A stretch of 64,000 nucleotides of DNA, taken from contig JAXQJY010000027.1 in assembly GCA_037042185.1 (NCBI GenBank), forward strand, positions 62,001 to 126,000. Direction: 5' to 3'. Numbering within the stretch: position 1 is the first letter of the stretch; the number at the start of each line of letters is the position of its first letter. A program made the translations under genes and the position numbers. Positions 25,888 to 50,479 of this stretch are shown here, in pieces. The DNA is from Sordariomycetes sp. S80-01Y (lineage: Eukaryota > Ascomycota > Sordariomycetes). The notes beneath the pieces were generated by a model. It saw nothing but the letters and a program-made list of their open reading frames with translations, made no database searches and was not told where the DNA came from.

Positions 25888-27744
25888 ATGAGGTTCATGT
25901 ATCTCAGTTCTATTTGGGCCGTCGCTGCGGGGGCAGCCACACCGTCCCTTCAACTACTCAACTCATCCACTCATCTACAAATCCTTGCCGACACTAATCG
26001 AGACGGTGTCGTTGACCAGCTCGATACGCACGATAAGCGTGTCTGGACGGACAAGCGAGGAGCAATCTTCCTCCCAAACATCGGAGACAAGGACCACCGC
26101 TGCGCCTCAGTTGATCGAAATGGGCTAGCCTTGAGCAACCACGAGCTGGCAGCATGTAACGATGCTTCGGGTCATCTTCTGCTTGCGCCAGAGCTTGCAG
26201 CTCCCCTCCGGACAAGCCCTCTAAGAAACTTGTCTCGGGACGCCGTGGGTTCGGTACACACCGAGCCCGAGTCTACTCTGGGAAAGATCCGTCTATTTTG
26301 GAAGCAACCTGGCTTTAACGCTGAGGACGGTTCTTCCTGGAGAATAATTGATCCGCAATTCATCTTCAACGCATCAAGCCTTTCAGAAGGGCTTGAGCTT
26401 GCAATAGATGCCCGGGCACCCGTTTCTGATCTTTCGACATGGAACGGCACCGTCACTGTAGCCTTTGAGGTCACTGATCAAAACATAACCAGAGTCGACT
26501 CTGTAGCCATGAAGCAAGCACCTGTTTTATTTCATCACCATTTGCAACCTGCAGACCGCATTATTTCGCGGCAGGGTAGCGAGAAAGAAGCACCTGTTCA
26601 AGCAGAATTCATCAGATCCCTCACCAAAGCGGTCGATGCGCTCTCCGAAGACGTACCGTTGACACTCCTGGACTATACAGACGACAAGGATAATATTTGG
26701 GTACAAGACTTTATGGAACCAGGCTATGCGAGTATGCCTGGGCCGTATGGACCGATTTCATTGCGAGTGATGGTTCGAAGTGCTCAGTCGACCCGGACTT
26801 CAGGACGTCAGATCTTTGAAGCTCTTCGCGGCGAAGGCATGGGCGGCCATCAGCTTCCTCTGGGGTCCGGTTTTGGACATGAGGAGATCAACTCAGGCGG
26901 CAACATCGAAACAATTCCACCCTACATCTCTAAGAGTGGCACCCCTTACCCCCACGGGCGAGTCATCATGGGCAAGCACTTTGACAAGTACCCTGCTCAT
27001 TCGATGAGTGACTTCGTCGAAGCTCAGGGGCAGCAGTCGGTTCTCTTCCTGGAAGCTGGCTGGCTGATTGTCGGACACGTTGACGAATTCATTCAATTTT
27101 TGCCATCTGATAACGATCTTGGATTCACCATAGCTGTTGCCGATACCGTTGGCCCAATTCAGCTCCTCCGGAAGGTGCAGGACGAGGGCCATGGGTCCGC
27201 CAAGGTGACTAGCTTTCCAAACCTGATCCCACCCGAAGGATTCTCCTTTTACGACCCCAGGCTGGAAAACCTGACAATTAGCATGCTGCTCTCTGACGAC
27301 GACTTTTTCGCAACACAGACTTATGCTCAGGAAAAGATCGAAGAGAATCTCAAGCTTCTCCTGAGTGAAGTTCCACTCTCCCCAAGCGATGTCTTGCGCA
27401 TTCCAACTCTGTTCAAAGATATGACGTTGCCATGGACACCTGACTACGATGGTCTTCCCCCGCGCCTGCAAAAAGGCCCTCCTGGAGAGAAGCAGCTTGC
27501 TGCCATGCTGCCTGCAGTCATTAACGGCGTGGTGTTGGGGTCGGATTACATCGCTGCTAAGCCATGGGGCCCCGTTATTAACGGCAAAGACATCTTTGAG
27601 GAGGCTGTTGTTGATAATTATGGTGAATTGGGTATATCGGTGCATTTTGTGGATGACTTCTTCTCTCATCACGTCAATGGCGGGGAGGTTCATTGCGGGA
27701 CGAACACTTTCAGAGATACTAAGGTTGCTTGGTGGGACTTGTAA
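25888..27744 (+). CDS. Secreted protein-arginine deiminase (PAD)
   Basis: Intronless gene for a 618-residue protein that should convert peptidyl-arginine to citrulline. Residues 1-16 (MRFMYLSSIWAVAAGA) form a signal peptide, so export is expected; several N-x-S/T sites follow. Residues 34-46 (ADTNRDGVVDQLD) look like a calcium-binding DxNxDG loop. The catalytic domain carries every key residue known from mammalian PAD4: D274 in NIWVQDFMEPGY (D350 in PAD4), H397 and D399 in VGHVDEF (H471, D473) and the nucleophile C603 in GEVHCGTNT (C645). The length matches animal PADs (about 660) without the first immunoglobulin-like domain being clear. Fungal PADs are known but little studied; substrates could be host or own cell-surface proteins. 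The intact single exon and conserved triad argue for an active enzyme. Confidence 0.95.
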   Translation: MRFMYLSSIWAVAAGAATPSLQLLNSSTHLQILADTNRDGVVDQLDTHDKRVWTDKRGAIFLPNIGDKDHRCASVDRNGLALSNHELAACNDASGHLLLAPELAAPLRTSPLRNLSRDAVGSVHTEPESTLGKIRLFWKQPGFNAEDGSSWRIIDPQFIFNASSLSEGLELAIDARAPVSDLSTWNGTVTVAFEVTDQNITRVDSVAMKQAPVLFHHHLQPADRIISRQGSEKEAPVQAEFIRSLTKAVDALSEDVPLTLLDYTDDKDNIWVQDFMEPGYASMPGPYGPISLRVMVRSAQSTRTSGRQIFEALRGEGMGGHQLPLGSGFGHEEINSGGNIETIPPYISKSGTPYPHGRVIMGKHFDKYPAHSMSDFVEAQGQQSVLFLEAGWLIVGHVDEFIQFLPSDNDLGFTIAVADTVGPIQLLRKVQDEGHGSAKVTSFPNLIPPEGFSFYDPRLENLTISMLLSDDDFFATQTYAQEKIEENLKLLLSEVPLSPSDVLRIPTLFKDMTLPWTPDYDGLPPRLQKGPPGEKQLAAMLPAVINGVVLGSDYIAAKPWGPVINGKDIFEEAVVDNYGELGISVHFVDDFFSHHVNGGEVHCGTNTFRDTKVAWWDL

Positions 27745-33697: not shown

Positions 33698-35536
33698 CTA
33701 GTCTCTGTCGGTGTTCTCCATGTGAACCTCTTCTTTCAATACGTCACCTCCCTTGCTATCCTCCGCGGGAAGTTGAATGACAGACTCTTTTGCAGCCGTC
33801 TTGAAATGACGCGCGGGTACCTTAGCTGCATAAAGCTCATCCAGCTTCTGGAAAGACAGCCCCTTTGTTTCAGGGAAAAGATACCAGCCGCCAATGCCAG
33901 CAATCAAGCCAGTTGCCAGAAAGATGAATCCAACCTTGCCTCCAAGGTTTCCGGCATCGGGGTTGATCATGTAAGGCACCGTGAATTGCATGATGAGACC
34001 CCAGACGGAGTTAGTAATGGTAATCAGCCCCTGCGTTGCGGCGCGAAGTCGCATTGTTGCGATCTCAGACGCAAGAACGAATCCCGTGGCACCGATGGAG
34101 AGCTGGTAGATGAGCGCCCAAACGTACAACATCGCTACGATGCCCCAGCCGGCACGTGTTTTGTCGGGAACACAGCCAAGGATGCCAATGATCAGGAGCA
34201 TCAAGCAGAGAACGAACTGGGGTCCCACAATAAGGAAACGCCGCCCGAAGATTTCCGTCAGGGGAAATGCTGCGGTAGATGCAAGGAGCATGACAATGTA
34301 GAGAGCGATCGACGCAGCGAAGTAGTTCTTAATGCCAATGAGCTCAAAGAAGTATGTTGCGTACCCAATGACAAAAGTAGCGCCGATCATCTGCTGAGCC
34401 GACGCAGCAAAGATGGCTGTAAATGTGCGCATGCGGTTGGCTGTGTCGAAGCACTCGGCCTCGAGACTGATGTCAACGCCGAGGAACTTGGTTTTCTTCT
34501 CCGCGGTACCTGCTTCTCGGAGCTCCGAGTTGACTCTGATCTCGTGTTCCATTCGGTTGATTTCGATTTCGTAGAATGCTTCCTCGCTGAAGCCGTAAAT
34601 TCGACGAAGAGCGCGTCTTGCTTCTTCTCTGCGGCCGCGTCGAACAAGCCAGTACGGCGATTCGGGGAAGAACGGCCACACAACCGACAAGATCACTACA
34701 TTGGGACAGGCGTCAGTTTCTCGTGCTCAGGTCTTGGCGAGGTCTTTCTCTCTGATTATCCGACTTACGTGGGAAGATGTACATCGCGACCACAGGTAGC
34801 CACCATTGCCAAACGCCTTCGATGTGGCTGCTGCCCTGAGACACGAGAACGATTGCGGTCTGGCCAAAGACGATGCTAGTATTAAAGAAGCAAAGGAAGA
34901 AGCCGCGAAGCTCCGGTCTACAGGTCTCGCCGATCCAGAGAGGCGAGATGGTAAACATCATGCCGATGGCAATGCCGTTGACACCGCGCCCTGCCAGATG
35001 CATCTTCCAGTCCGGCGCAAGCTGCTGCAAGATGACGCCTGCCACGGAGATGACTGACGCCGCGAGGACCCCCCACTTACGGCCGTACTTCTCAAGAAGC
35101 GGCGCGAAGATGAACGTTGCGACGATTTCGGTGGCCGGAGCGATTGAGTTCCACGCCGAAAGGTAATGGGCGGGTATGAGGTAGGACCCGTCAGCTTGGA
35201 GCAGACCGAACTTCTCCTTGAACTCTGGAAGGGCGGCAAGCTGACCGCCAGCAACAATGTCGAAGCCTTGCATGACAACGCCCATTGATATCCATAGTGC
35301 TGTTCAGCAAGAGGGCGTTAGCAAGGCACAGCTTCTGGTTGGGCGTGAGCAGAGGATTGGATAGCGTACCCCAGAGAGCAAACCGAGACTGGGTTTTGAG
35401 TATAGTCCATTTCTTGCTCGGGTCGACGACCGAATAATCAACGCTGGGGAGAGGTCAGCAAATTTCCATCATCAACTCGAAAGCCCTTTATAGTAAGGGA
35501 CGTGTGGTCGAACACTCACCCGCAAATAAGAGTCAT
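33698..35536 (-). CDS. MFS sugar transporter (sugar porter family, alpha-glucoside/oligosaccharide permease-like)
   Basis: Proton-coupled sugar uptake at the plasma membrane. Exons 35520-35536, 35370-35443, 34769-35299 and 33698-34695 total 1620 nt (539 residues). Sugar-porter signatures are [41 protein letters not shown] after TM6, and PETKGLSF after TM12; twelve membrane segments can be traced. The cytosolic N-terminus is short and the C-terminus carries an acidic tail. The closest general type is the fungal maltose/alpha-glucoside permease group, which also takes up fructosides. It is transcribed divergently from the GH32 gene across a 738-bp promoter containing an inverted repeat that recurs at the regulator/GH172 promoter. 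A TATA box on this strand is at about 35641-35648. I read it as the importer for the substrate of the GH32 and GH172 enzymes. Confidence 0.94.
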
Positions 35537-36274
35537 GATGGATGAAGATTGGATGCTTCAAGCTGTCGTCTAACGAGATGCGAGGGCAGTGGGCTCATAC
35601 ACAAAGGCTTCAAGGCGTGTCAAGAGCTCCCGGAGAGCGTCTTATATAGGGAAAGCAACTGGTATGAAATAACTCAGGGCGGCTCAAGGCGTCGTGCAAC
35701 TCCCACACCACGGCATCGAGTGGTCACCACAGGTCCGGACGTGGCGATGGGGTACGTACCACGTGTCGATGCAGTGTCCACCGACCTGGGGTTGCGACCT
35801 GGGGATAGCGGATCGAGTCATTTTGTGCTGTACCCCATATGATCAGTCATGGCTTCGTGTGGGGAGCCGAACCGCAGAGCCGAAGCCGGTCTAGAGCTCA
35901 GACGCATCGCGGAGGTCATGTTAGCTCCGCGATGCTCTTCCACGCTATCCAATCACATCGCTGGAGTGGCGGCGACGAGTGATGGGGCTGTTCCGATGCT
36001 CCGCTGTCCACACAGTCGTACGCTGTGTCCGATGTGTGGCATTGCCTTTCAACCGCACTCTAGAGGAACATCCCTCTCGCAGTGGGCAGGTGGTTTTGGA
36101 GATCAAACGATGGCATCTGATCCACTTACTCGTGGATTCGGTCAGAAGAACCAGAGGCCCCAATTCCTTAACAATGGCAAAGCTGCCTGCGCGCAAATCG
36201 GTCTGGAACCGACAGTTGCTTTGTTTTTTACTACAAGTATCGAGTAAAAGAAATCCTACGTTGAAGGCGTCGAA
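35537..36274. promoter_or_regulatory. Bidirectional promoter, transporter / GH32
   Basis: The intergenic region serves both divergent genes. Besides the central inverted repeat at 35904-35935 it holds a cluster of four CCG triplets at about 35867-35888, another possible zinc-cluster protein target, and a minus-strand TATA box near 35644. No gene is seen. Confidence 0.75.
35904..35935. promoter_or_regulatory. Inverted-repeat operator 1 (candidate Zn2Cys6 site)
   Basis: GCATCGCGGAG, 10-nt spacer GTCATGTTAG, then CTCCGCGATGC: perfect 11-bp arms. It contains CGG-N14-CCG, the inverted-triplet form used by Gal4-like regulators. It lies almost midway between the two start codons (368 bp and 340 bp away). 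The same core is present at 40152-40173. Confidence 0.8.
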
Positions 36275-38077
36275 ATGTTTGAATCAATCCACAAGAAGCG
36301 CTTCAGTCGGCCCAAAGTGCATTTCTGTGCTCATAGCTGGATCAACGACCCGTGCGCCCCCTACTACGATGCGAAAACCAAGACCTACCACCTTTTCTAC
36401 CAATGTTAGTGGAAGATCGAGCCGGGGAAACCAACGCCTGTTGACTGTTTTGCAGGTAATCCAAAGAGTTGTGATTGGGGTAACATGTCTTGGGGACACA
36501 TCGTGTCTGAAGACATGTTAAGCTGGGCGGAGCACTCGGTATCTCCAGCGCTCCGCCCCGAGACAGCCTATGACATCGAAGGTGTCTTCACAGGCTGCGC
36601 AATACCATCCTCGGACGATGCAGACAGTTCTTTGAGAGTAGTATACTCTTCCGTCAGAGAGCTACCGTTCCATTGGAGTACACCACCGTATCCCCGCAAC
36701 GCCGCTGGACTGTCGATTGCCACTTCTCACGATGGTGGCAAGACATGGATAAAAAGCTCCCAGAACCCCATCCTCGAAGGCGAGCCTGCAGATGTCAAAG
36801 TGTCAGGATTCAGAGACCCTTACGTCACGTCGTCGGAATCTTTGGATATTTTGCTTGGTAAAAATGCCTTGTACGGCCTCATATCGGGTGGCATTGAGGA
36901 GTGCGGGCCGACAACATTTCTCTATGAAATTTCTCGCCAGTCAGCTGAGAACTGGAAGTATCTCAACCCACTGGTAGACGTTCCACTGAGGTTCCAACCT
37001 TCGGAGAAGTGGTCCGGCAATTTCGGAGTCAACTGGGAATGCACCAACCTGATCCAGCTGGAAGCAGGCTCGGTGACAAGGGACTTCCTCGTCATTGGAG
37101 CTGAGGGCGACATCGAGAAGGATCATATTCGAGAAGGCTCTCGAGATGGAACGCTCAAACGCACAGTCCGGAGCCAACTCTGGATGTCAGGGCATCTCGA
37201 AAAGACCGCTACAGGCGCCAAGTTCAAGTACACGCACGGTGGTATCCTCGATCATGGACCGTTGTATGCGGTCAACACATTCTACGATGTCAAATCTGGC
37301 CGTCGCATTGCTTACGGTTGGATACCGGAAGAAGACTTGCCCGGGGAACTTGCGCATCAGAAAGGATGGAACGGATCATTGGCATTGCCGCGTGAGTTGT
37401 TCCTGTTGCGGATTACCAACGTTCTCGGAGCGCTCCATAGTAAGCTCGGCGACATCTATCCGTACGAAGCTGTTACCGAGGCCGATGGTTCAAAAACAGT
37501 GTATACAATCGGAGTGCGGCCGATCTCGGAGATCGACCAACTACGAAAGTCTTGTCAATGCTTCCAGGCAGAGGCACCAATCTCCTGTCCATCCATAGGT
37601 GATACTGGACCTAAGAGACTTTTCCGACCCTCTGCACCTGCTTGGGAGCTCAACGCAACAATTCGGATTACACTGGGCTGCGAGATGGTTGGCTTCCATG
37701 TCAATCACAGCGAAGACCTTAGCACTCGGACCAGTATATACTTCTCGGCAATTAACGAGACTATTGTGATAGACCGTCACGCATCAACTAGTGACGAACG
37801 TATCAACAGGTGTCCCGATGCTGGGCCTTTTACTCTGTTGGAGAAGGACTCTGGTGGTGGGTGTGAAAAGGTTCTGGAGAATATTGATATCCGCATTATA
37901 TCAGACGCAGACATCTTGGAGGTCTTCGTCAATGACCGCTTTGCGCTGGCAACTATGGTATACTCTGATGTTGAGATGCCATGCATATCCGCATTCGCTT
38001 GTGGTGACATGGACAGCGCTGTGTTCGAGGCAGTGAGTCTTTGGGATGGATTACAGACTACACAGGGTCGGTCATGA
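36275..38077 (+). CDS. GH32 fructosidase (invertase/inulinase family), no signal peptide
   Basis: Hydrolyses beta-fructofuranosidic bonds (sucrose, inulin, levan or short fructosides). Exons 36275-36404 and 36456-38077 give 583 residues. The five-bladed propeller motifs are present: SWINDPC (nucleophile D25; the usual Asn-Gly after Pro is Cys-Ala), GFRDPYV (transition-state Asp164) and NWECTNL (acid/base E238). The C-terminal beta-sandwich is also complete (EVFVNDRFALAT). The protein starts MFESIHKKRFSRPKVHF with no signal peptide, so an intracellular enzyme is expected, unlike classic secreted invertases. Donor GTTAGT and acceptor TTTTGCAG define the 51-nt intron, and splicing restores FYQCNPKSCDWGNMSWGH, the family's conserved lead. 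Divergent to the sugar transporter, it is part of the 33.7-41.9 kb cluster. Exact substrate is unknown. Confidence 0.94.
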
Positions 38078-38166
38078 AGCTGCGTTAGACAGCAATGAAG
38101 TAGCCGCCCCAAGAAAAAGTGCAATACAAGTACATAAAGTATCAACACATCGTCCTATGCCTCCAG

Positions 38167-40023
38167 TTATTCCTCGTCAAGGCGTCCAGCTAGGATACTG
38201 TGCATCATTGTCAGCGAGGGACTTGATGCGACAATGTCTCTGTCCACATTGCGCGCTGATTTCAGGCAGTTCCTGAGTCTTGTCCAATTGATTGTGCAAT
38301 TTTCCTTCAGGCATTGTGTCTTTTCCGCCCTCAGAGCTGCCATGGTCGTCATGAACACGGTCGCGCAGAGCGTCCAGCGGTTCACAATGCAGCTGCAAAT
38401 GGAGGTTAGTAGGGTCGGCATCAACTGGATATACGCGTTGAAGAATCTTTCTGCAAACTCTTTGGTCTCCGCAGTGGTAAAACCGTCTTGAATACACTGG
38501 TAGACGGCCGGCCAGTAGATGTTGAGCTTGTAGCAATAATACTGGACTCGTAAGAAGTTGCTGAGGGGCTCCATAGAAGGGAACGACCCGGGCGATGTGA
38601 GAACATCAAAGTCAAACAGACGGTCATCCTCAAAGCGGATGATATCTGGCAGGTAGCTGTACCACTCGTCAAGCTGGCGCTGAAGCTCGAGGGCAACTCC
38701 AGGAGCGTGAGCAATGGTACCATCTGGATTTGTCCTTATAGCTGTGTTGCACCGATGAAGCATCCGTCGAATAGATATTTCCGCCAGGAAGTAGGCCTGT
38801 GTTGTATTGGTCTTCTCTTCTGCCCCACAAGGCGCGCTGGCTGGCGATATTGAGACCATTGGAGAGCTTCCTAGCTCGTTATCCCAGAGCCAGGCACTGC
38901 GGCCATCAGGCAGCGCCGTTTCCTCGTTGTGACTCCAGACTCCGCTTCTCACAGCGTCGAGTTGATCTTGAAGCTCACTTTCAAGAAGAAGCGCCACCCA
39001 ATAAGACCTCTTTATCTGCTCATTCAGCTCCTTGTCTGACGAACTGGTGGCCCTAATTAGATTCTGTACTTTGAATGAGGCCATCATAATGTACTCGTAG
39101 GCCTGGCAGGGCTTCACGAGACAGCAATAGTATATGCTCATCAAGATAAGGCCCTGAACAGCACTTATGCTGGTATCAACCAGGAGAGCCGGCAGCGAAG
39201 CCATGGCCGCTTCAAGGTAGAGAGAACTGTTGTCTCCTGCAGCACGGACCTCCGACGAGCGATCATTCTGGGCCAAAACCCCAATTGCCGCCACCAGAAG
39301 GACCAGGAATGATTCAGGGCCAGGGCTCAACGGTCCGGAGATGGTGCGAATGTAGTGATCCGAAAAGCCGGGTCTCAATATAGGGTACCAAATGTGGACG
39401 TATTCGGAGAATGCCGACAGGGCCCTGAAGGCTTCCTCGTGCTGGATGATTCTCAGGGTCGAAGAACCGGAAATACCTGCCGGTGGGTTGGCTCTCTCAT
39501 GGGCCAGAAGATGTTGCATGAACTGCGGTTCCAGGCCCAAAGTGACCATCATATGGGGAGTGCCCAGAAGCTGGAAAGGCGACTGCTCCTGAACAGTCCA
39601 TTGAGACAGGCCGGGGCTTAGAGGTCTCGGCGGAGCTAGGGGAGCTTGTCCGGAGAACACAGGTGGAGAGGCCCATGACTGCAGAATGCTGCTAACAAGG
39701 TCCAGCCTCTGGTTGACGCCGGACAGCTCGATTTCAATCCTGCTGTGGGCGTTAGACGCTGCCTCTCTCAACTCAGGGCGTCAGTTGTACCTAGACCGCG
39801 GAGCAGAAGGACCCTGCTCATATTCGCACGCCAAACCATGAGTGTGACAGTAGCCGCAGGCCGGACGGCGGCTGTCGCACTTGGTTCTCCTCGAGCGACA
39901 TGTGTTGCATGCCGTCGTCGTCCGAGTTCGCGTTCTCCGCGGCCTGTTCCGGCGGCGACTTTCTGAAGGGTTTTCGGAGGCTGACCCTACGTCCGCTTGC
40001 GCTTCAAATGATTGCTGCTGCAT
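38167..40023 (-). CDS. Zn2Cys6 regulator of the fructoside cluster
   Basis: Pathway-specific activator candidate. Exon 1 (39813-40023) has a basic leader and the zinc cluster with Cys at 39, 42, 49, 56, 59 and 66 (CNTCRSRRTKC, CGYCHTHGLAC). Exon 2 (38167-39764) has the Fungal_trans middle-homology region (AFSEYVHIWYPILRPGFSDHYI, AIGVLAQND, IRRMLHRCN) and ends RLDEE; total 602 residues. In the direct reading a TGA interrupts the frame just after the zinc cluster; a 48-nt intron with donor GTCCTT, branch ACTGAC and acceptor GAG|AG removes it in frame. The donor is weak, so a nonsense mutation is possible but less likely. It lies beside GH32 and is divergent to GH172, with the shared inverted repeat between. 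The layout and size resemble the inulin/sucrose regulators of Aspergillus (InuR-type), though I cannot show orthology. Confidence 0.85.
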
Positions 40024-40151
40024 GTAGACGGATACAAATTGAAAAAGGAAGCACTTGCAACGTCCGATGCTCCGCGACAATGAACCTGACTCTGCGAGTT
40101 ATTGGAATGCCCTGATATTGCCCTTTGAACCGAACGCCAAGACCCACAACA

Positions 40152-40173
40152 GCGGAGGTAAGTTTAGCTCCGC
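40152..40173. promoter_or_regulatory. Inverted-repeat operator 2 (same core as operator 1)
   Basis: GCGGAG, 10-nt spacer GTAAGTTTAG, then CTCCGC. Arms, spacer length, the first two spacer bases (GT) and the last four (TTAG) are the same as in operator 1, and the right half shares the 12-mer TTAGCTCCGCGA. It sits 129 bp from the regulator start and 340 bp from the GH172 start, so it can serve both genes and permit autoregulation. Confidence 0.8.
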
Positions 40174-40513
40174 GAGGGAAGATCCAAGATGTGCCCTCTC
40201 ATATTCGCCTCAGACCAATAGCTCTGGCGTCCGCGAGTCACGCCCTGTGGATCGTTCTCCAAATTCTCCTCACTCTCGACCCATCCACAACGCGTTTCTT
40301 ACAGACGACAAGATCTCCGCTAGGGCGACTGTGATCAATCGTCCCGCAGAACGCAGCTGCAATTTTCAACATCTCCGTTTCTTGCGATTGCCGTCGCCCC
40401 AGATGGACGCCGCCAAGCAGTCGAAGCAAGACGGCCGCAATGGGTATAAGAGACCATGGGGATCCCATCAAGGGCGGTGTGGTAGCCCACCAAGAAGAAC
40501 ATAGCATATCAAC

Positions 40514-41875
40514 ATGGCCAGCATCTCCCAAGGCAATCTGCTCGCGTCCGTCGCCCAACGCAAGGTTGGGCGCACTGCCCGTGTGTCCAGCTACGACCAC
40601 TCAGGCCTCAATGAAGATGCCTTCGTCGTGCTCCCTGGCGAATCTGCCGTCCTCGCAGACATCGAAGGCCCCGGCAAGATCACCCATCTTTGGTTCGTGC
40701 AAACCTGCCGCCGCATCCTTGGCCCAGGTCTTATCCCGTACAGCAAGTCTGGGGTGGCCATGATGGAAATTCATAATGCCCTGGGTCTTAGCTACGAGGA
40801 TAGCGATCCTGATTATTACCGCAAGGTTATTATCAAGATGTACTGGGATGATTCCGAGACCCCGAGCGTGATCGCTCCGATCGGAGACTTCTTCTGTCTG
40901 GGACATTCGATGGCCGCCAACTTCCAATCCCTACCCTTCACCGTCTCCGTCAAGCCTTCGGAAGAGAAGAAGTACGGCGGATCCGCTGCCTTCAACTGCT
41001 ACCTCACCATGCCGTTCAACAGCCGCGCGCGGATCGAAATCGAGAATCAGGGCGAGGACGCCTACTTCCAGTACTTCTACATCGACTACGAGCTGGAGCC
41101 CAAGCCTTACGACCCCAAGGAGCTTCTCTACTTCCACGCTCACTGGCGCCGGGAGAACCCGACCAACGGCTGGGCTCCAAATGCCATGCAGACCAACAGC
41201 CTCGAGACGCAGGTGCCCAACCTCACAGGAGACGGATACACCATCCTTGAGACCACGGGCGCTGGCACTTTCATTGGCTGCAACCAATCCGTGCTGCATC
41301 ACCAAGGCACCTGGTGGGGAGAAGGCGACGACCTCATCTTCATCGACGACGACGAATGGCCGAGCATGCACGGCACTGGCGGCGAAGACTATTTCACCCA
41401 GGGTTGGGGCATGCAGAAGAATGCGTATCCCTTCTGTGGCAGCATCATCCACGAGGAGGACGTCCCGAACCATCAAGTCTCGTACCGATGGCACCTTGCC
41501 GATCCCATCCGCTTCGATAAGAAGATCAAGGTGAACCTGGAGCACGGACACGCCAACCATCTCAGAGACGACTGGTCCACCACGGCGTACTGGTACCAGA
41601 CGCTCCCGGGACCCAAGCTCGACATCCAGCCGGTCGAACAGCGGCTTCCCAACCGCCCCACCGTCAAGCCTCCCCCTGAGCCGGCCGAGAACAGGCCCTT
41701 GACCGACTTGCAGAAGAAGATGGTTGCTCAAAGAGAAGAGAGGCTCCAGGCGTTCGTCGATGACAGGAACAGGTGGCTCCAACGCCGCGCGGCAGACTCG
41801 AAAGAAAGATCCAAGAAGAATACCGAAGTCGCCAAGGATATTAGGAAGAGATTTATGGAATCGTTGCAGAAGTGA
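40514..41875 (+). CDS. GH172 (former DUF2961) glycoside hydrolase, fructofuranosidase/DFA-active type
   Basis: Single-exon gene for a 453-residue protein of the DUF2961 family, now GH172. Family members characterised in bacteria cleave or form alpha-D-fructofuranosides (difructose dianhydride I) and arabinofuranosides. The N-terminal half shows GPGKITHLWF, VIIKMYWDD and PIGDFFCLGH. The catalytic section has QGTWWGEGDDLIFIDDDEWP with E270 and MHGTGGEDYFTQGWG with E291. Both the 21-residue spacing and, as I recall it, the numbering match the two catalytic Glu of the Bifidobacterium enzyme. The last 70 residues are a charged, probably coiled extension (LTDLQKKMVAQREERLQAF ... KDIRKRFMESL), which may drive oligomerisation. 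There is no signal peptide. A TATA box (TATAAG) is at about 40445. Divergent to the Zn2Cys6 regulator, it lies with GH32 and a sugar transporter, which favours a fructoside substrate. Confidence 0.9.
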   Translation: MASISQGNLLASVAQRKVGRTARVSSYDHSGLNEDAFVVLPGESAVLADIEGPGKITHLWFVQTCRRILGPGLIPYSKSGVAMMEIHNALGLSYEDSDPDYYRKVIIKMYWDDSETPSVIAPIGDFFCLGHSMAANFQSLPFTVSVKPSEEKKYGGSAAFNCYLTMPFNSRARIEIENQGEDAYFQYFYIDYELEPKPYDPKELLYFHAHWRRENPTNGWAPNAMQTNSLETQVPNLTGDGYTILETTGAGTFIGCNQSVLHHQGTWWGEGDDLIFIDDDEWPSMHGTGGEDYFTQGWGMQKNAYPFCGSIIHEEDVPNHQVSYRWHLADPIRFDKKIKVNLEHGHANHLRDDWSTTAYWYQTLPGPKLDIQPVEQRLPNRPTVKPPPEPAENRPLTDLQKKMVAQREERLQAFVDDRNRWLQRRAADSKERSKKNTEVAKDIRKRFMESLQK

Positions 41876-43373
41876 TCGAAACCTCACTACTCCCCTCGCA
41901 GCGACCCGCCATCTGCATTCCTTGATGTCGACGGGAGGACAGACAGACTGCGGCGAATACTCTCCTGAATGAGATCGACGTGCACCGTAGATTCGAAATT
42001 GGTGAACATATCGCTACGAGCTGCACGAGAACCAACCAAAAGGTATAATAAAGATATTACTAAACGAGATTTCAAAAGTCCATGAGTAATTCTAGATCCT
42101 TCAAGATTTAATATCACCCCACGTGACTTCTTATTACGAGCCGTCAGCTGGCTGGATCGTCAGAGTTGACCACCTACCCTAGGCCAAGTGTACTCAAGGA
42201 GCCAAAACCCCAAAATTATCCTCCCTACCCTAACAACTATAATGGTGAATAAAAGAAAGTTATTCATTCATCGAGTTACCCATATTTTAGACGGGGTCTA
42301 ATCCAACTCATGATTATTCTCTTCTTTACGGAGCCAATGAATTACGACCGTGCCGCTGGCATGAGTTTCCGGCAAGTTAACTCCAGATCACGATAATTTA
42401 AATTCGCCTACAATCGGGGGTCTGCAATCCGTGGTCGAAGCTGAGTGGCGACGGGTGTGCTAGATCGTGAGATCGGGCTACTTATGTCAATGTCACATTG
42501 CTACTGGGGAATAGTGCTACTTAAGCAGCAACGTACACCCCCCTCCACCCCCCAGCGGCTAATTATGTCAACATCCCGACCCTGATGACGATTATTGAGT
42601 TTCGCAATGTTTACTAATTAAGCCCTCGGTCATTCATCACATGCTGCTGCTGAAGACGATTGCTATGGAACACCCGACTTTTACGGGCAGGTTTGACGAA
42701 GACCGGCCCAATTGCTCACACTGGCGAAGGAAGTGATCGATACTGATGAGGCTGTCCATAACCGAAAAATTGCCCACTGACTTCTACCCTGCCTTACTCT
42801 CTCGTTGCAACCCCAGTGCCTTCCTCCGGTCGCCCAGCGGATTATAGGTGATTATAGGTGCAGATTTCGCGGCAATATTTTGACGGCTACGATCCCACCT
42901 TCTCTTGCGCCACCGTCAAAGATGCAGACAGAGCGATAGGGTCTCAAGATTCACTGTGTCGATGAGGAAGCTGGACCTAGAGTGTAGGGGGTAGTGACGC
43001 TATGAGCGCTTGTATACGGTACTGTCGAGCGGGAATATTAGGATGCCAACCTTCTACCCGTAGGTCTAAGTCTTGGCCCTGGCCAACATGAACGCACCAG
43101 CCGAGGAGGTGCCTCGACCCACTTGGCCTGGCCACTGCTGTGTATATATAACGGGGACCTTCGTCCTCCTGACTTGGGCAGTAGTCTGGTTTAATTGACG
43201 CTCCGAAGTTCTCAGGTGAGATCTTTCATTGATATTTGACAGATATTACATTCAGAAATAGCGACTGTTTTGTTTCATCGTCGCCAACTCCCGATTCCAA
43301 ACACTCGTTGCATCTCACTTTTATTTCCCCACACCATTAATCTGCTCAGCCATCTAAACCTTTCGACGCAAAC
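41876..43373. other. Intergenic, promoter of MBL-fold gene 1
   Basis: About 1.5 kb without a recognised gene. A short direct repeat (GATTATAGGTGATTATAGGTG) lies near 42840. A strong TATA box (TATATATAA) is at 43142. A possible 5'UTR intron (GTGAGATC...ATTCAG, about 43216-43255) precedes the start codon at 43374. Confidence 0.55.
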
Positions 43374-44264
43374 ATGGCGACCCCTCTCCCACTTCGATTT
43401 GCTGTCCACGTAGCGCCTCCTATTCCTTGTGTTGACTTCATCAGCAAGGTCGACAAAGGACACACGTGGTCGCCCATATCCTGTACTTTGGTGTACTCGG
43501 AGACGGAAGCGGTCCTCGTCGACACGCCCATCACCACCAACCAGACCAGAGACCTGATCGCGTGGATCGAGACAGTCGCGCCGAACAGAAACCTTTCATA
43601 CATCTACATCACCCACGGTCACGCGGACCACTTCTTGGGCCTTACGCAGCTCCTTCAGCGTTGGCCCGGGGCAGTTCCCCTGGCTACTGAGGCCACTATT
43701 GCCCACATCGAGCACCAGCTTGACGAGAAAACTTTCACAAACACTTGGGAGGCATTCTTTCCCGGGGGCCAGATCTTTAAGCCCATTACCAAGCCCAAGC
43801 CCCTGACAGGGAGCAACGAGTTCCACCTACAGAGCCGCTGGCTCTTCCAGGCCGTTGAAGTTGGACATTCCGATACGTACGATTCCACCATCCTCTGGGT
43901 GCCTGACATCAAACTCGCTGTTTGTGGCGATGTCGTTTACGGTGACGTTCATCAGATGCTCCTCGAGGCCAACACGAAGCCCAAAAGAGAGGAATGGATT
44001 CGGGCGGTAGAGAAGGTTGAAGCTTTGAATCCAGTGTATGTCGTGCCCGGCCACAGGAAGGCCGAAGAATCGGACGGAGCATGGCATCTAGCTTATACGA
44101 AGAAGTATCTCTTGGATTGGGGCAGGATTCTTCGGGCCTCTCCCAAGGACCCAGAAGAGCTCTACACGGAAATGATCAAGCTGTACCCTCACAGGTTCAA
44201 TCGAATGCCCGTACTTTGGAACGCTGGAGGCGCTTTCCAAGTCCCCGAGCGGTCCAGAGTGTAG
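43374..44264 (+). CDS. Metallo-beta-lactamase-fold hydrolase 1
   Basis: Intronless, 296 residues. The zinc-binding motif HGHADH is at 81-86, preceded by VLVDTPITTNQTRDLIAWIE, the usual second-strand motif. A third zinc ligand His is in EVGHSDTYDST, a bridging Asp in CGDVVYGD, and the last His in VVPGHRK. This is a complete binuclear MBL site of the flavonoid-/lactonase-like type; it could hydrolyse a lactone or thioester. The protein is cytosolic (no signal). It is clearly paralogous to the MBL protein at 49598-50479: both start with a short strand then WSPI(S/C)CTL, and both share the GD(V/I)VYG and PGH blocks. It opens a region with two tautomerases and an enone reductase. Transcription is away from the GH172 gene, so it seems a separate unit from the sugar cluster. 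Confidence 0.9.
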   Translation: MATPLPLRFAVHVAPPIPCVDFISKVDKGHTWSPISCTLVYSETEAVLVDTPITTNQTRDLIAWIETVAPNRNLSYIYITHGHADHFLGLTQLLQRWPGAVPLATEATIAHIEHQLDEKTFTNTWEAFFPGGQIFKPITKPKPLTGSNEFHLQSRWLFQAVEVGHSDTYDSTILWVPDIKLAVCGDVVYGDVHQMLLEANTKPKREEWIRAVEKVEALNPVYVVPGHRKAEESDGAWHLAYTKKYLLDWGRILRASPKDPEELYTEMIKLYPHRFNRMPVLWNAGGAFQVPERSRV

Positions 44265-45011
44265 GTGATGGGTATGTAGTTTTAGAACAGATTCGGATGC
44301 GAAGAGAATCAAGTCTCAATTTTGGTTCATTGCTGTGTATCTGCTACGGTGAGCTCAGTCAGTCTTGTCATGTGACTCAAACGATTGGATTGCCCGGGTA
44401 GAGGTGGCTCAAATGCGTAGTCTTATTTTCTACTCCATTACTTGAGTCCTGGTGACGATTTTGAAGGCGCTCAGTGTCACAAATGAGGCAAAATTACAGA
44501 TGAATTTGCCTTATTGCTATAAATCTAGACTGATATCGTCTCGTGGCTGTGAGGTCTGTCTCGCCGGCTCTTGTGAGCGAACTGACGGAAGCAATCCAAA
44601 AAGTTCAACGGGTAGAATCAACCCATAACACTAGCAAAGTCTTCATTGGAAGAAAGCGCATTACCCCTTACCGAACCAAATTGATTTCAAAAGGATAAAT
44701 GGCTTCTAATTGAGCTCTCTGTTCACTCGCATGTTGAATGTTGTGTGTTCAGCCCACCCCAGCCTTGCTCCCTATCGTTGCGTTGAAGCCCGACGGGAAT
44801 CCCGTTGTCTTGCCGAACCAGCCCAATGTGCTCGCAGTCCACTTAATCCTCCTATCATGGCCGAGAATCCAATTAGGCTGGCGCAGAATCGTCAATCAGC
44901 CACAGACTGTGGCCCAGTGTTAGTGTCTGCTATTCCGGGAACTGTGAGATAATCCTACCGACAGTAATGACAAGCAGTCGTGGCGCCCGTTGCACCAGTT
45001 AAAGAGTTCCT
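44265..45011. other. Intergenic, convergent 3' ends
   Basis: About 0.75 kb between convergent MBL 1 and tautomerase 1. Only short uninformative ORFs are seen. Confidence 0.55.
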
Positions 45012-45452
45012 TTACAGATTGGGCTCTGAGAGGACTGGCTTGTTGTGCTTGGACCACAATTTTTCCATCCTAGAGCCCGTTGGAGGAGGCGCAATGCCAT
45101 CTATCTTCCAAAACTCTCGGGCGCCTTCCATGACGAAATACTCCCAGCCCATGCCCGTTTTCGTCATTCTCGGAGTGAGGACCTTGTCAACAGAGTCTAT
45201 GAAACGCTGCTTGCGGTCCTCAGCAAAGTCTCCCACGTTCTGGGCAACGTGATAAATGGAGATCATCGTGAACTTCGGATGGGGGCTGCCTCCGTACCAC
45301 AGGTCATCTGCGCCAAGAGCAATGAATTGTACGTTGACATAGAAAGCAGGCAGACCGGATTTGGCGTAGAGCTGGGTGACTGCTTCGGCTAAATCCTTCT
45401 TCTCTTCAGCCGTGAAGGCACCCGCAGAGTGACTGAAAATCCAGAGAGGCAT
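45012..45452 (-). CDS. cis-CaaD-like tautomerase 1 (Tautomerase_3 type)
   Basis: A 146-residue single-exon protein of the tautomerase superfamily, whose members use an N-terminal proline as catalytic base once Met is removed. The start MPLWIFSHSAGAFTAEEKK was chosen because it puts Pro at position 2 as the family requires; an in-frame Met 34 codons upstream would bury the proline. The core ALYAKSGLPAFYVNVQF-like region (AVTQLYAKSGLPAFYVNVQF) and the C-terminal MGWEYFVMEGAREFWKIDG-IAPPP match the cis-3-chloroacrylic-acid-dehalogenase-like fungal group. The central strand reads FTMISIYHVAQN where copy 2 has an Arg (FIRIAIDHIAVH), so a likely active-site Arg is missing here. Substrate unknown. 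Divergent from the reductase at 46360. Confidence 0.88.
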   Translation of the reverse strand: MPLWIFSHSAGAFTAEEKKDLAEAVTQLYAKSGLPAFYVNVQFIALGADDLWYGGSPHPKFTMISIYHVAQNVGDFAEDRKQRFIDSVDKVLTPRMTKTGMGWEYFVMEGAREFWKIDGIAPPPTGSRMEKLWSKHNKPVLSEPNL

Positions 45453-46359
45453 TTCTCTAATGTGAAGTGATTCTGTAACAGATGGCGAAGTAGCAAGTGA
45501 TGATACTAATGAGACTGGATATGCAACCACAAAGAGAGTAACTTGGAAGAACACGACGCCTTACCGAAGCTATATACTCGAGCATTTGATTTCGAACCCG
45601 TGATGAACGTACCCGTGATGAATCATGACGATCCACATGAGTTCCTCGGCACAGGTGGAACAATAGAGCATCAGGGAACTTGTAGGCAGAGAGCCCTGTA
45701 CGGTTACAATGTCCTAGCTTCTATGCACAGCCGCCTCACTGATAATCGTTCCCTCATCCGGAAATGCCAACAAGGACGACCCATAAAATGATCAGGCGCT
45801 AGGTAGGTGGGTCATCATGGGGTACCTCTAGTTGCCGATCAATGGTTCGGAAGAGTGACATAAGAGGTCCTTCAAGGCAAGCCAAATGATCAAGCCAGCC
45901 CGCACAATAGAGTGGGGCCTAACGCGGGGTTCGGCAGCGATGGAATGAGTGCTGGAAGAAGGTCTACGACGCTAACTCCAGATGCACTCACCTCACTGTT
46001 CGCGTGCGCTCCGAGTTTCTTGAGCTACAGTGACTGTCCATGACCTTGCCATTGTACCTTATGCAACACGGTCAAGCACTCCCAGAGAAAGGCTGCTCGA
46101 TAGAGGCGACTGGACTTTTGGGACGGGAGCCCACTGCCTTGAAATAGGCGAGGAACCTGCTAGAAGAAAGCCAGTCAATACTTCTAGCCCGTTGACGCAG
46201 ACCCCCTAAGAACCGCAAATAGCAAGGGCGTTGAGCTGCACTAGAGCTATGTATAAGAAGACCCTCTAGTGTCCCTCCGTAGCTGCGCATCATTACTCGT
46301 TTTCTCGAATCTCTACTCCCGACTCCCCACACAGAAGACCAGCTCCAGCAAACACCACA
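45453..46359. other. Intergenic between divergent tautomerase 1 and reductase
   Basis: About 0.9 kb that should contain both promoters. TATAAG at about 46252 is 107 bp before the reductase ATG. No gene is recognised. Confidence 0.6.
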
Positions 46360-47412
46360 ATGGCACCCACACAGAATAAGTCCCTCGTCTACAAGGCTGT
46401 GCCCGAGACCTTTCCCGAGGCCGGCAAGCACCTTACCGTGGAGGACCGCCCCATCAACCTCGACACAGTCGATCTGCACGACGGCGTCCTGGTCAAAGTC
46501 CTTTACACGTCTTTCGATCCCTATTTGCGAGGTCGCATGCGCGACCCCAGCGTACATTCTTATAGCCCCCCCCTGACTCCTGGCGAGGCCCTCGAGTCAG
46601 GCATTGCCGGCAAGGTTGTGCGCTCAGACAACCGGCAATACCAGCCTGGTGACCTCGTTGCTGCCTTCTCAGGCCAGAACGCCGAGTACACCGTTATTCC
46701 CGAGAAGCTCTTCTCCGTTATTGGCCTGCGCAAGGTCGACATCACACATGGTCTCCCACTGTCCTACTATATTGGTTTCCTGGGCATGCCCGGCGCAACA
46801 TCATTCGAGGGTCTGTATGACATTGGCCAGCCCAAGAAGGGCGAGACCATCTTCATCTCATCGGCAGCTGGAGCGGTCGGCCAGGTGGTTGGGCAGCTCG
46901 CCAAGGTCGAGGGCCTGACCGTCATCGGCTCCGTGGGATCTCAAGACAAGATGGACTACGTCAAGTCCCTGGGCTTCGACGCTGTGTTCAACTACAAGGA
47001 GGAGAGACCTCTTGAAGCCCTCCGCCGGCTCGCACCTCAGGGCATCGATCTGTACTGGGACAACGTCGGCGGCGAGATCCTTGAAGCCGCCCTCGAGGTC
47101 ATGAATACTCACGGTCGCATCATCGCCTGCGGCTCTATTAGCGGATACAACTCCAAGCCCGAGGATCGGTACGGCGTCAAGAACATGTTCTACGTTGTTA
47201 CGAAGCGCATCCGTATGGAGGGCTTCATCGTCGACCTGTCGCCCCCGAAATACAAGGCCGCACTAGAAAAGCTCGTCCCGCTCTTCATCGAGGGCAAGAT
47301 CCAAGGCAGGGAAGATATCTATGAGGGCATTGAGAAGGGCCCGGAAGGGCTTGTTGGAATCTTCAAGGGGCAGAACTTTGGCAAGGCCATCCTCAAAATC
47401 GCCGACGCCTGA
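46360..47412 (+). CDS. NADP-dependent alkenal/enone double-bond reductase (zinc-free MDR family)
   Basis: Medium-chain dehydrogenase/reductase of 350 residues, like leukotriene-B4 12-hydroxydehydrogenase and plant alkenal reductases; reduces the C=C bond of alpha,beta-unsaturated carbonyls. Motifs: VLYTSFDPYLRGRMRD, SGIAGKVVRSDN, GMPGATSFEGLYDIG, the nucleotide-binding SSAAGAVGQVVGQLAK (Gly-rich loop), and VDLYWDNVGGEILEAAL (read here as IDLYWDNVGGE). Zinc-ligand Cys residues of alcohol dehydrogenases are absent, as expected. MAPTQNKSLVYKA is the usual start. Intronless, cytosolic, in the middle of the MBL/tautomerase region, it could process an enone produced by the neighbouring enzymes. Context CCACAATGGC supports the start. 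Confidence 0.95.
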   Translation: MAPTQNKSLVYKAVPETFPEAGKHLTVEDRPINLDTVDLHDGVLVKVLYTSFDPYLRGRMRDPSVHSYSPPLTPGEALESGIAGKVVRSDNRQYQPGDLVAAFSGQNAEYTVIPEKLFSVIGLRKVDITHGLPLSYYIGFLGMPGATSFEGLYDIGQPKKGETIFISSAAGAVGQVVGQLAKVEGLTVIGSVGSQDKMDYVKSLGFDAVFNYKEERPLEALRRLAPQGIDLYWDNVGGEILEAALEVMNTHGRIIACGSISGYNSKPEDRYGVKNMFYVVTKRIRMEGFIVDLSPPKYKAALEKLVPLFIEGKIQGREDIYEGIEKGPEGLVGIFKGQNFGKAILKIADA

Positions 47413-48137
47413 GTATTTCGATGGAAGTAGTAGATATACGATTACCAAGAGTAAAAGACTTCCAGCATGGGCCATGGCAAATCAATGAGCATAGTCAATC
47501 CGAGAATCGACGAATCATTGCCCTCATCATATGTAGAACTCGTGTTTCTAACTTGTGTCACTTAAATGGGTGACAATAAAGTCTTGAACGCTGTCCGCCG
47601 GCCCTGGCATGCTTGATGACCAGATTTCCACAAAGTGCCAGCGTTTTGAGCCACAGCTACAGATCACGTCCCAAGTCAGCAATTAGAACCCCGCTCAAGT
47701 TGAAGCGAAAAAGTCTAGAGCTATCCTCACAGATATTCTGTTTGTCAACGTCATCACCGCCGAAACTCGTGTTAGGTCCTACTACATCGTGTCCATTAGC
47801 TTTGTTCCTACCCCGAGGAACCTATTATGTCACGCCTCCGAGCCGTTAATCAGCGACTGGAGAAAGCATAGCACGACCCACACACCTAGCGCATAGTTGC
47901 TCGGTGGGTCGTCATTAGCGGCACGCCCATTAGGCAGTGTCGAGTAAGTTGATGCTCCCATACTTTAAGTCACTCCGGCCGCGCCGTCAAATCATCCGCC
48001 AAGTCACTAAGGCGCGAGCAACGTCTGGCCTGGCCGCGGTGTCGGATGCGGGGTGACGGATACTTGATAGGAACACCGTGGATGGATGAAAGTGGGAACG
48101 AAACGTATCAAATCCAATCCTATTCCAAGCCATCTAG
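47413..48137. other. Intergenic, convergent 3' ends
   Basis: About 0.7 kb between the reductase and tautomerase 2. No gene is recognised. Confidence 0.6.
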
Positions 48138-48587
48138 TTACGCTGAGCTATCATCATAGGGGACAGCCCGGTTCTCCCTCGCCCATCGATCTTCCTGTTC
48201 GCTCCTGAACGGTGGAGGAATAAGTCCATTAACCTTCCACAATCTACGTTCTGTCTCATCCACATGAAATTCCCAGTCATAACCCTTGTCAGCAATATGT
48301 GGCTTCAAAGCCTGGTCAATCCGGGAGGTGGTGCGGTCATAAACATCGTTGTTCTTCTCCACGTGGACGGCGATGTGGTCGATGGCGATGCGAATGAAAG
48401 GTTTGTCGCTCTTCTGTTCTCCGCCGACCCAGAGATCTGCGACTTGGAGTTTGATAAAGTTTGTGACCACGTAAAAAGCAGGAAGATTGATGTCGGTATA
48501 GATCTTCGTGATGTCTTTGGCAAGAGCCTGCTTTGAGGCTGCGTCCTCGAACGTGCCGGCAGGATGGAAAATGAGCCACAGGGGCAT
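48138..48587 (-). CDS. cis-CaaD-like tautomerase 2 (Tautomerase_3 type)
   Basis: A 149-residue single-exon tautomerase paralogous to the one at 45012-45452. It starts MPLWLIFHPAGTF, exposing the catalytic Pro after Met removal. Shared blocks are TDINLPAFYVVTNFIKL, ADLWVGG, FIRIAIDHIAVHV (with an Arg absent in copy 1), YDWEFHVDETERRLWKVNG and IPPP. In cis-CaaD the chemistry uses Pro1, His, two Arg, Tyr and Glu; several candidates are present here. The retained Arg suggests that this copy keeps the ancestral active site. Followed upstream by MBL 2, so the pair mirrors MBL 1 with tautomerase 1. No signal peptide. Confidence 0.9.
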   Translation of the reverse strand: MPLWLIFHPAGTFEDAASKQALAKDITKIYTDINLPAFYVVTNFIKLQVADLWVGGEQKSDKPFIRIAIDHIAVHVEKNNDVYDRTTSRIDQALKPHIADKGYDWEFHVDETERRLWKVNGLIPPPFRSEQEDRWARENRAVPYDDSSA

Positions 48588-49597
48588 GTTGTGTGAAGTG
48601 TTTGGATTTGGACTCAGATCGGGTGTTATATCTCAGACGAAACGGATGTACTTCTGAAGTCTTGGTGGTGACAACACGCACAAAAGTGAGACTTCTTATA
48701 AGAAGTTAGCAAGCGTGAGAAGAATGCTGAAGGAGTCGAGAAGTACCAGCTACTCCTCGGCAACATCCACTCATCATGGCAGCTCTCGGAACCGTTTTTC
48801 GACCGATGGTCCGACATTGAGCAACTTCAACCGACCAGTCATCGCCCCCTCAGTTTAAATTAGGGCATGTGACTCGCGCTTAGTGGTCGGAAACGCCGGG
48901 TGGTATCTCATCTCTCGAACAGGTGGCGGGGAGGATAATGATGACACTCTCGATCCGGTACTGTGGGGATGGTGTTGCAGGGTGACGGGGAAGCGGAAGG
49001 GCAGGGCGCAGATGGTGGTTCGACACAACTGATTCATCCTTTGGTCCGTGTTGAGCCTTACTGTATATGCTTGGATCCCTGGATTATCGGGCGAAGTGGT
49101 ATTGCGCCGCCGTTTATGATCATTTTCTCAGGACTCGAGAAGAGATGATAATTGTGATCACACGGTGCCTTAAAGGCCAGGGTCTTGAAAGGGTCAAGCG
49201 CCACTGCAATTTTTGAAGTGATCGGAGTTGCAACAACTCCATGAAAATAACGTATTTGTCAACTTCAAGAGGAGGAAGTGATAGGCCCAGGCAGCATGGC
49301 CAGTGAAACAGGTGAAGGTCACCAAAACTCTAGCTGCGGCAAGGATCAAATGATGTCTATGCCTTGAACTGCCTCCGGGGAGGTCATTGCAAATTATACG
49401 AATCCTCGGACGCGCACACAAGCATGAGAGGATTCTGATACAACCAACGGGGTTATGATTTATTGAAAAGGCCTCAAAGCTATACTGGATGCAGTCACTT
49501 AAGGAGCAAGAAGGTCTCTTTCACCAAGTGAGCGAACGGCCTTGCCCACAACAAAAACCCTCGCTGACACTTTCATGGGCTTTCCACCGTACAGAAG
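48588..49597. other. Intergenic, promoter of tautomerase 2
   Basis: About 1 kb. No gene is recognised; short ORFs only. Confidence 0.55.
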
Positions 49598-50479
49598 TTA
49601 TGCTTGTGTCTTTGACTTAGCTGCCAAGTGTTCTGCAACAGAGTTTTGGCAGCTAAAGGCCAGGATGAAATCATTCCACCGATTTGGATACCGCCCCTTC
49701 ATCGCCTTATAAAGTTCATCTGCGTCCTCCAATCTCTCCAGTTCCTTTTCAAAGAACACTATGTACTCTCTCGTAAGGTCGATCAAGTACGGTCCGTCCT
49801 CTTGCGAGGGCCTTTTATGACCCGGCACAATGATACTCGGGGCCAGGGCCTCGATTTGGTCCAAAGCGTCAAGCCAATGTTTTCTTCTCTCAGCTGTACT
49901 AGCCTCGCCCAAATGCTGAAAGCATTCGCCGTAAACGATGTCCCCGGAGACAACGAGCTTTAGGCTAGGCACATGAAGGAAGGAAGATGCCGCAGTGTCG
50001 GAAAAGGCGACGTTGATGCCAAATAGGCTGTGCCCATCGATGGAGAACTCTCCATTTTCCGGGAGAGGCTCAGGGACGACCTGCCCCTCGGGGATCTGGC
50101 CATTGGGGAAAAGCACGTTCCACCTTTCGAGGCCATCTGCCAAAAACTGCTTCATTCCGTCGACCACAAAAGACGTTGCAACAGACTTGGCCTCTGGGAA
50201 TTCTGCTAGGATTACGGGATTGCCAAAGAAATGATCCCCGTGAGCATGAGTCGTATAAATGTAACGGAGGGTTTTCCCAGCAGCTGTCTTTTTCACCCAA
50301 TCGATAAGACCTTTGGTCAACTCAGCCGTGGTGGGCGTATCAACGAGGACCGCAGATGTCGGGCCCTGAATGAGGGTGCAGCAAATTGGCGACCACAGCT
50401 GTTGGGAGGGGTCTGGCATTCCAGTCACCGCACCGATGATTGGCGCCACGTACACGTCGACTTGTAGTGACTTTGACAT
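49598..50479 (-). CDS. Metallo-beta-lactamase-fold hydrolase 2
   Basis: Intronless, 293 residues, paralogue of the MBL protein at 43374-44264. The zinc motif is THAHGDHFFG (H78, H80, D82, H83). Further ligands lie in NVAFSDTAASS (position normally held by His reads Ser/Asp here: AFSD versus VGHSD in copy 1), SGDIVYGE (bridging Asp) and IVPGHKR. So copy 2 seems to lack the third His, which could leave a single-metal site. The start MSKSLQVDVYVAPI fits the paralogue. It is in the same direction as tautomerase 2 and is divergent from the alpha/beta hydrolase at 51041, sharing a 561-bp promoter region. Cytosolic; substrate unknown. Confidence 0.9.
   Translation of the reverse strand: MSKSLQVDVYVAPIIGAVTGMPDPSQQLWSPICCTLIQGPTSAVLVDTPTTAELTKGLIDWVKKTAAGKTLRYIYTTHAHGDHFFGNPVILAEFPEAKSVATSFVVDGMKQFLADGLERWNVLFPNGQIPEGQVVPEPLPENGEFSIDGHSLFGINVAFSDTAASSFLHVPSLKLVVSGDIVYGECFQHLGEASTAERRKHWLDALDQIEALAPSIIVPGHKRPSQEDGPYLIDLTREYIVFFEKELERLEDADELYKAMKGRYPNRWNDFILAFSCQNSVAEHLAAKSKTQA

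Follow-up and report, generated by a model that had tools for sequence, protein, structure and literature searches.

In a 64,000-nucleotide stretch of the genome of Sordariomycetes sp. S80-01Y (the window; positions 62001-126000 of contig C10, in a genome of 30,874,049 bases on 16 contigs), four adjacent genes encode a major facilitator superfamily (MFS) sugar porter, a GH32 enzyme, a Zn2Cys6 regulator and a GH172 (DUF2961) enzyme. We propose, with a probability of roughly 0.6, that these genes form one co-regulated unit for difructose sugars, chiefly difructose dianhydride I (DFA I) and inulobiose. The proposal builds on the gene families, on residues that define the GH172 subtype, on sequence elements exclusive to the two promoters and on the partnership of the same GH172 subtype with GH32 in bacteria. 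The genes are modeled as follows:

33698-35536, reverse strand: MFS sugar-porter gene, 539 residues; four-exon model (35536-35520, 35443-35370, 35299-34769, 34695-33698)
36275-38077, forward strand: GH32 gene, 583 residues; model exons 36275-36404 and 36456-38077
38167-40023, reverse strand: Zn2Cys6 regulator gene, 600 residues; model used, exons 40023-39813 and 39758-38167, with an ambiguous intron
40514-41875, forward strand: GH172 (DUF2961) gene, single exon, 453 residues; predicted DFA I synthase/hydrolase subtype

This order makes two divergent pairs, and all four frames are open, that of GH172 without interruption. Open frames and Pfam matches together confirm the four genes and their paired arrangement as put forward in the original prediction, an earlier reading of this stretch. 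The exon joins are models built on the genomic sequence without transcripts, and the regulator intron allows six joins.

The GH172 protein covers all 235 positions of the Pfam profile PF11175 (E = 5.4e-83; 278.5 bits against a curated cut-off of 27) and is the sole match to it in the genome, in an exon-by-exon search confined to best candidates; an NCBIfam search of the protein gave no match. Its best solved relative is alphaFFase1 of Bifidobacterium dentium (7v1v; E = 6e-142, query residues 12-447), followed by 4kq7, 8ah3 and the arabinofuranosidase 8ic8 (E = 7e-53 to 5.2e-27, the last value being that of 8ic8). The window protein is 50.1% identical to alphaFFase1 across 399 aligned residues and 48.1% identical in a multiple alignment. 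In the cited passages of the paper that describes alphaFFase1, homologues are placed in its subtype when the pocket residues are kept and identity to alphaFFase1 exceeds 47% (PMC8605356), and both hold for the window protein. The catalytic pair, named there as E270 and E291 (PMC8605356), is conserved along with the other residues of the -1 site. From the list of 12 active-site and calcium-site residues in the same source, 11 are kept; N272 of alphaFFase1 is D in the window protein, a D found in 16 of the 18 aligned rows. A two-sequence AlphaFold2 model is poor (mean predicted local distance difference test score, pLDDT, 31.7), with a helix at residues 398-452 modeled at about 50-69 pLDDT that agrees with the long C-terminal helix reported at 397-448 of alphaFFase1 (PMC8605356).

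The weightiest residues are E85 and K147 of the +1 subsite, both present in the window protein, because alphaFFase1 mutants at these positions fall below 5% of inulobiose activity and retain almost full activity on p-nitrophenyl alpha-D-arabinofuranoside (PMC8605356). Across an 18-row alignment, E85 occurs in all seven subtype rows and in none of the 11 distant rows; K147 occurs in six of the seven (R in Chimaeribacter) and likewise in no distant row (10 gaps, which depend on the alignment, and one N). Judged by these residues, the protein is a member of the DFA I synthase/hydrolase subtype and not a generic DUF2961 protein, and the corresponding activity is predicted for it. Could the enzyme instead act on alpha-D-arabinofuranosides, for example those of actinobacterial glycans, as other GH172 enzymes do? 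Exo-D-arabinofuranosidases of GH172 have been characterised (PMC10115798), and alphaFFase1 itself also cleaves arabinofuranosides (PMC8605356). Such a role is nevertheless very improbable given that E85 and K147 are retained, that a GH32 gene adjoins and that the best match is alphaFFase1 and not 8ic8. A generic arabinofuranosidase was set aside on the residues and the gene context.

Two sequence elements recur in the divergent promoters, which measure 738 bp between the MFS and GH32 genes and 490 bp between the regulator and GH172 genes:

35909-35932, forward strand: element A, copy 1, MFS/GH32 promoter; CGGAG-N10-CTCCG (CGG-N14-CCG) inside a 24-bp stretch
35992-36004, forward strand: element B, copy 1, MFS/GH32 promoter; 13-bp word TCCGATGCTCCGC
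40063-40075, forward strand: element B, copy 2, regulator/GH172 promoter
40152-40175, forward strand: element A, copy 2, regulator/GH172 promoter

The copies of element A are identical at 21 of 24 bases. Its 22-base pattern is matched exactly twice in the genome, once per promoter, and at four more places with three mismatches, against nine matches at up to three mismatches for the reversed control; the 13-bp word of element B also has two exact genome matches, one per promoter (reversed control, 1 and 1). When one promoter was shuffled 4,000 times with dinucleotides preserved, the first score was reached six times, the second never, and both together never. These counts support a link between the two gene pairs through the shared elements. 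Several points weigh on the other side: the elements were spotted by eye before statistical testing, the first shuffle score taken alone was matched in those 6 of 4,000 cases, genome-wide the bare core CGGAG-N10-CTCCG shows no enrichment, with 38 occurrences to the 64 of the control, and GCGGAG, the half-site, agrees with SYGGRG, the consensus of the repressor CreA, as well. For its lack of enrichment, the bare core was rejected as informative by itself.

The last two of these points would suit a different interpretation, namely that the elements are CreA sites and not sites of the neighbouring regulator. The agreement at 21 of 24 bases, however, extends beyond a site of six bases, and the promoters have a second word, of 13 bases, in common as well; we consider CreA a possible but unlikely owner of the elements. 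Less likely still is that the locus is a sucrose/inulin locus of the kind formed in Aspergillus niger by inuR, a transporter gene and sucB, with GH172 as a passenger without joint function. A. niger does have a regulator, a transporter and a GH32 enzyme under consecutive tags, with sucB controlled by InuR, as detailed below; yet both shared elements lie in the GH172 promoter, the active site of GH172 is kept, and the InuR-type site CGG-N8-CGG has no match on either strand of either promoter. The InuR site was accordingly rejected as a shared control of the two pairs.

The GH32 protein matches PF00251 (E = 3.2e-45) and PF08244 (E = 2.1e-24) and contains the NDP, FRDP and EC motifs, in which we take the catalytic triad to be seated. 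Fungal-type invertases and beta-fructofuranosidases are its closest solved relatives (5xh8, E = 1.1e-48), and it has one paralogue of 42% identity in the genome (L023). Genome-wide, PF00251 has 11 matches, of which two are parts of the same gene and one is weak (31 bits). Judged by eye, neither GH172 nor GH32 begins with a secretion leader. The porter matches PF00083 (E = 8.3e-77), lies below the cut-off of the NCBIfam sugar-porter model TIGR00879 (222 bits, cut-off 237.8) and has glucose/hexose porters as its closest solved relatives. The regulator matches PF00172 (E = 2.6e-10) and PF04082 (E = 7.2e-6), with a best other genome match of 32% identity. Elsewhere in the genome, at C16:2416196-2419755, paralogues of the regulator (reverse strand, 32%) and of the porter (forward strand, 31%) form a divergent pair; the pairing of regulator and porter therefore occurs twice. 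Near one end of contig C15 (13364-18178; L018, L022, L024) lie two GH32 genes with leader-like N-termini, one with WMNEPNGL and the other with WMNDPNGL, presumably a secreted endo-/exo-inulinase pair. Because the genome has these inulinase-like genes at C15:13-18 kb with leader-like starts, inulobiose could arise from the fungus's own digestion of inulin.

How would such a unit work? We propose the following scheme, for which we infer substrate, transport, direction of flux, cell location and regulator binding. The MFS porter would import a disaccharide, either DFA I or inulobiose. In the cytosol, GH172 would interconvert DFA I, an alpha-fructofuranoside, and inulobiose, and GH32 would cleave inulobiose into two fructoses. 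The neighbouring Zn2Cys6 protein would bind element A, element B or both, and thereby switch both divergent pairs, and with them the gene that encodes it. DFA I could be supplied by soil bacteria or by heated sugars. For alphaFFase1, the equilibrium between DFA I and inulobiose stands at 89.1:10.9, with the same bias for the Aspergillus fumigatus enzyme (PMC8605356). Since this balance of about 89:11 favours DFA I, the enzyme alone supports synthesis as well as hydrolysis, a further point against the breakdown that we propose. As GH32 would drain inulobiose, however, the equilibrium may be pulled towards net breakdown, an idea likewise proposed for B. dentium (PMC8605356).

The chief alternative takes the equilibrium at face value: the unit would import inulobiose, other short fructans or sucrose, and a chiefly synthetic GH172 would let fructose be stored or exported as DFA I. 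Difructosedianhydride is listed as an extrolite of A. fumigatus (PMC4703822), and the inulinase-like GH32 genes of the genome would be in keeping with such a role. Against this, the GH32 enzyme of the unit would use up inulobiose, and the GH172/GH32 pair of B. dentium and of further bacteria adjoins importers and is read as catabolic. We regard a synthetic unit as rather unlikely, and the locus as a real, probably functional fungal counterpart of the bacterial DFA I operon.

The bacterial partnership was surveyed in a small sample of 14 loci, made up of 12 plasmid matches picked by hand (131 records matched) and two loci from genome contigs; 12 listed plasmid records exceeded 50% identity, of which five were opened. 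GH32 genes were sought with tblastn and three GH32 queries, a search that a divergent GH32 could escape. They were found within 10 kb in five of the six loci of the alphaFFase1 subtype (Verrucomicrobiota, L028; Arthrobacter, L030; Rhizobium phaseoli, L031; Rhizobium T136, L032; Rhizobium T1470, L083; the one without is Chimaeribacter, L033) against none of the eight other GH172 loci (L029, L034, L077-L082). With the close relatives L032 and L083 counted once, the tally is 4/5 against 0/8. Subtype residues were checked in five of the six subtype loci (not L083), the records of L030 and L081 are cut by their ends, and the placing of L029 among the distant loci is unsure because its match is partial (query residues 246-429). 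In the phylum of the Verrucomicrobiota locus, 113 of 288 genomes had a match; of the matches listed, none but that in the starting genome exceeded 50% identity, and the loci of this search were left out of the neighbourhood count because they are about 4 kb long. Phage records gave three matches only, all weak.

Gene content around the subtype loci is informative as well. The Arthrobacter plasmid pNtRootA2-1 carries, in a row, two LacI genes, an ATP-binding cassette (ABC) transporter, GH172, GH32 and a carbohydrate kinase, and R. phaseoli plasmid pRphaR744b carries GH32, ABC genes, GH172 and LacI. On the Chimaeribacter plasmid (L033, 9980-17469), where residue 147 is R and GH32 is absent within 10 kb, GH172 is accompanied by a GPH symporter, LacI, an FGGY kinase and an L-fucose isomerase; this locus may serve another sugar, such as a D-arabinoside or D-arabinofuranoside. 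Distant GH172 genes adjoin LacI and an oligosaccharide MFS gene on a Klebsiella plasmid, and mannose/fructose-type phosphotransferase system genes with a sigma-54-interacting regulator on plasmids of lactobacilli (together L078, 5291-11038; L079, 4444-13515; L081, 2425-13152).

Where did the fungal gene come from? In an 18-row GH172 tree, the window protein forms a pair with the Arthrobacter row (support 99/99), away from the other actinobacterial row, B. dentium. This pairing does not show transfer, because the window protein is the only fungal row and several branches are long or weak. We tentatively entertain, as a possibility that is on balance doubtful, that a soil bacterium, possibly an actinobacterium, was the donor of the DFA I synthase/hydrolase gene, and that the fungus built it into its own sugar locus under a dedicated regulator and can eat the cyclic difructose which soil bacteria produce from inulin for themselves. 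If this were true, the fungal DFA enzyme, on record since 1982 but with no gene proven for it, would gain a gene context and a physiological role. We met no account, in the literature searched, of what difructose-anhydride synthase does for A. fumigatus, and such a fungal unit, with GH172, GH32, a porter and its own regulator, makes the role of the enzyme in the fungus directly testable.

The rest of the window offers little that touches on fructosides. The 20 open reading frames scanned outside the four genes (60 were selected) include no sugar hydrolase or sugar-specific gene and belong to families without an evident fructoside link; one has a general MFS_1 match at the far end of the window (62581-63426). 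A 633-residue open frame at 25843-27741 (forward strand) matches nearly the whole protein-arginine deiminase profile PF03068 (E = 3e-122). Within 43341-50494, two Tautomerase_3 genes (45015-45560 and 48141-48632, reverse strand) lie beside a zinc-type dehydrogenase gene (46270-47409, forward strand) and two metallo-beta-lactamase-fold genes (43341-44261, forward strand; 49601-50494, reverse strand), a group that may be a small catabolic cluster of its own. No telomere array is present in the opening 1,500 bases of contig C10.

How does the unit compare with known systems? Among fungi, a likeness in gene content is found in A. niger, where inuR is An15g00300 (PMC5493111), the transporter An15g00310 is induced on sucrose (PMC5968117), and sucB, An15g00320, encodes an intracellular invertase reported to be under InuR (PMC5701360). 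A Zn2Cys6 regulator, a sugar transporter and an intracellular GH32 enzyme are thus common to both species, with adjacency in A. niger deduced from the consecutive tags; unlike the window, no GH172 appears at that locus in the excerpts of these papers, and the window promoters lack CGG-N8-CGG. Yeast MAL loci similarly group a permease, an intracellular disaccharidase and a Zn2Cys6 activator, as in the window, but their enzymes are for maltose and include neither GH32 nor GH172.

Fungal GH172 proteins themselves have been noted before. Sixteen such sequences form one clade, AFUA_5G00510 of A. fumigatus included (Kashima 2021, PMC8605356). This protein, 48.6% identical to BBDE_2040, was put forward as the difructose-anhydride synthase of A. 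fumigatus (EC 3.2.1.134), an enzyme isolated in the 1980s whose gene had not been identified (PMC8605356). Like the window protein, AFUA_5G00510 is a fungal GH172. Afu5g00500, the preceding tag, is named a maltose permease (PMC2526178), and the numbering suggests that the two genes are neighbours; a literature search on neighbouring tags returned Afu5g00500 only, with no GH32 or regulator neighbour seen. In Talaromyces amestolkiae, DUF2961 is reported fused to a fungal regulator region (PMC8812541), perhaps a joined model of neighbouring genes. Our search of openly licensed papers turned up no account of GH172 and GH32 together in a fungal cluster.

Bacteria offer close parallels in function. 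The B. dentium operon (BBDE_2039-2043 and a LacI gene) comprises LacI, GH32, GH172 and ABC transporter genes (PMC8605356). As in the window, a regulator, GH32, GH172 and a sugar transporter are adjacent, and both enzymes are held to be intracellular there; the operon differs in having LacI in place of Zn2Cys6, ABC in place of MFS, and one operon in place of two divergent pairs. The loci on pNtRootA2-1 and pRphaR744b combine GH172 of the same subtype (54-56% identity) with GH32, a transporter and LacI, again with bacterial regulators and ABC transporters and, in Arthrobacter, an additional carbohydrate kinase. The window GH32 is distant from the bacterial partner GH32 proteins (23-29% identity to partners other than BBDE_2039). 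In the Blautia DFA-III cluster, a cyclic difructose is opened to inulobiose and then passed to GH32, with a transporter alongside, the enzyme being GH91 instead of GH172 and the sugar DFA III instead of DFA I in the passages cited (PMC11538131).

These comparisons bear on the original prediction, which had read the four genes as a candidate fructoside and difructose-anhydride cluster of a make-up that it did not know to be described in fungi. Its functional part finds good support in the sequence, given the near-full-length match of GH172 to a DFA I synthase/hydrolase, the kept catalytic and +1 residues and the shared elements. The novelty was overstated: the B. dentium operon follows the same logic, the inuR, transporter and sucB tags run together in A. 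niger, and a fungal GH172 had already been proposed as a DFA synthase. What is new is the fungal four-gene assembly with its shared promoter elements. In the roles of its genes the unit would work like the B. dentium operon, with a regulator and a transporter drawn from other families and no common descent implied, such that fungi and bacteria share a pathway layout served by unrelated regulators and transporters.

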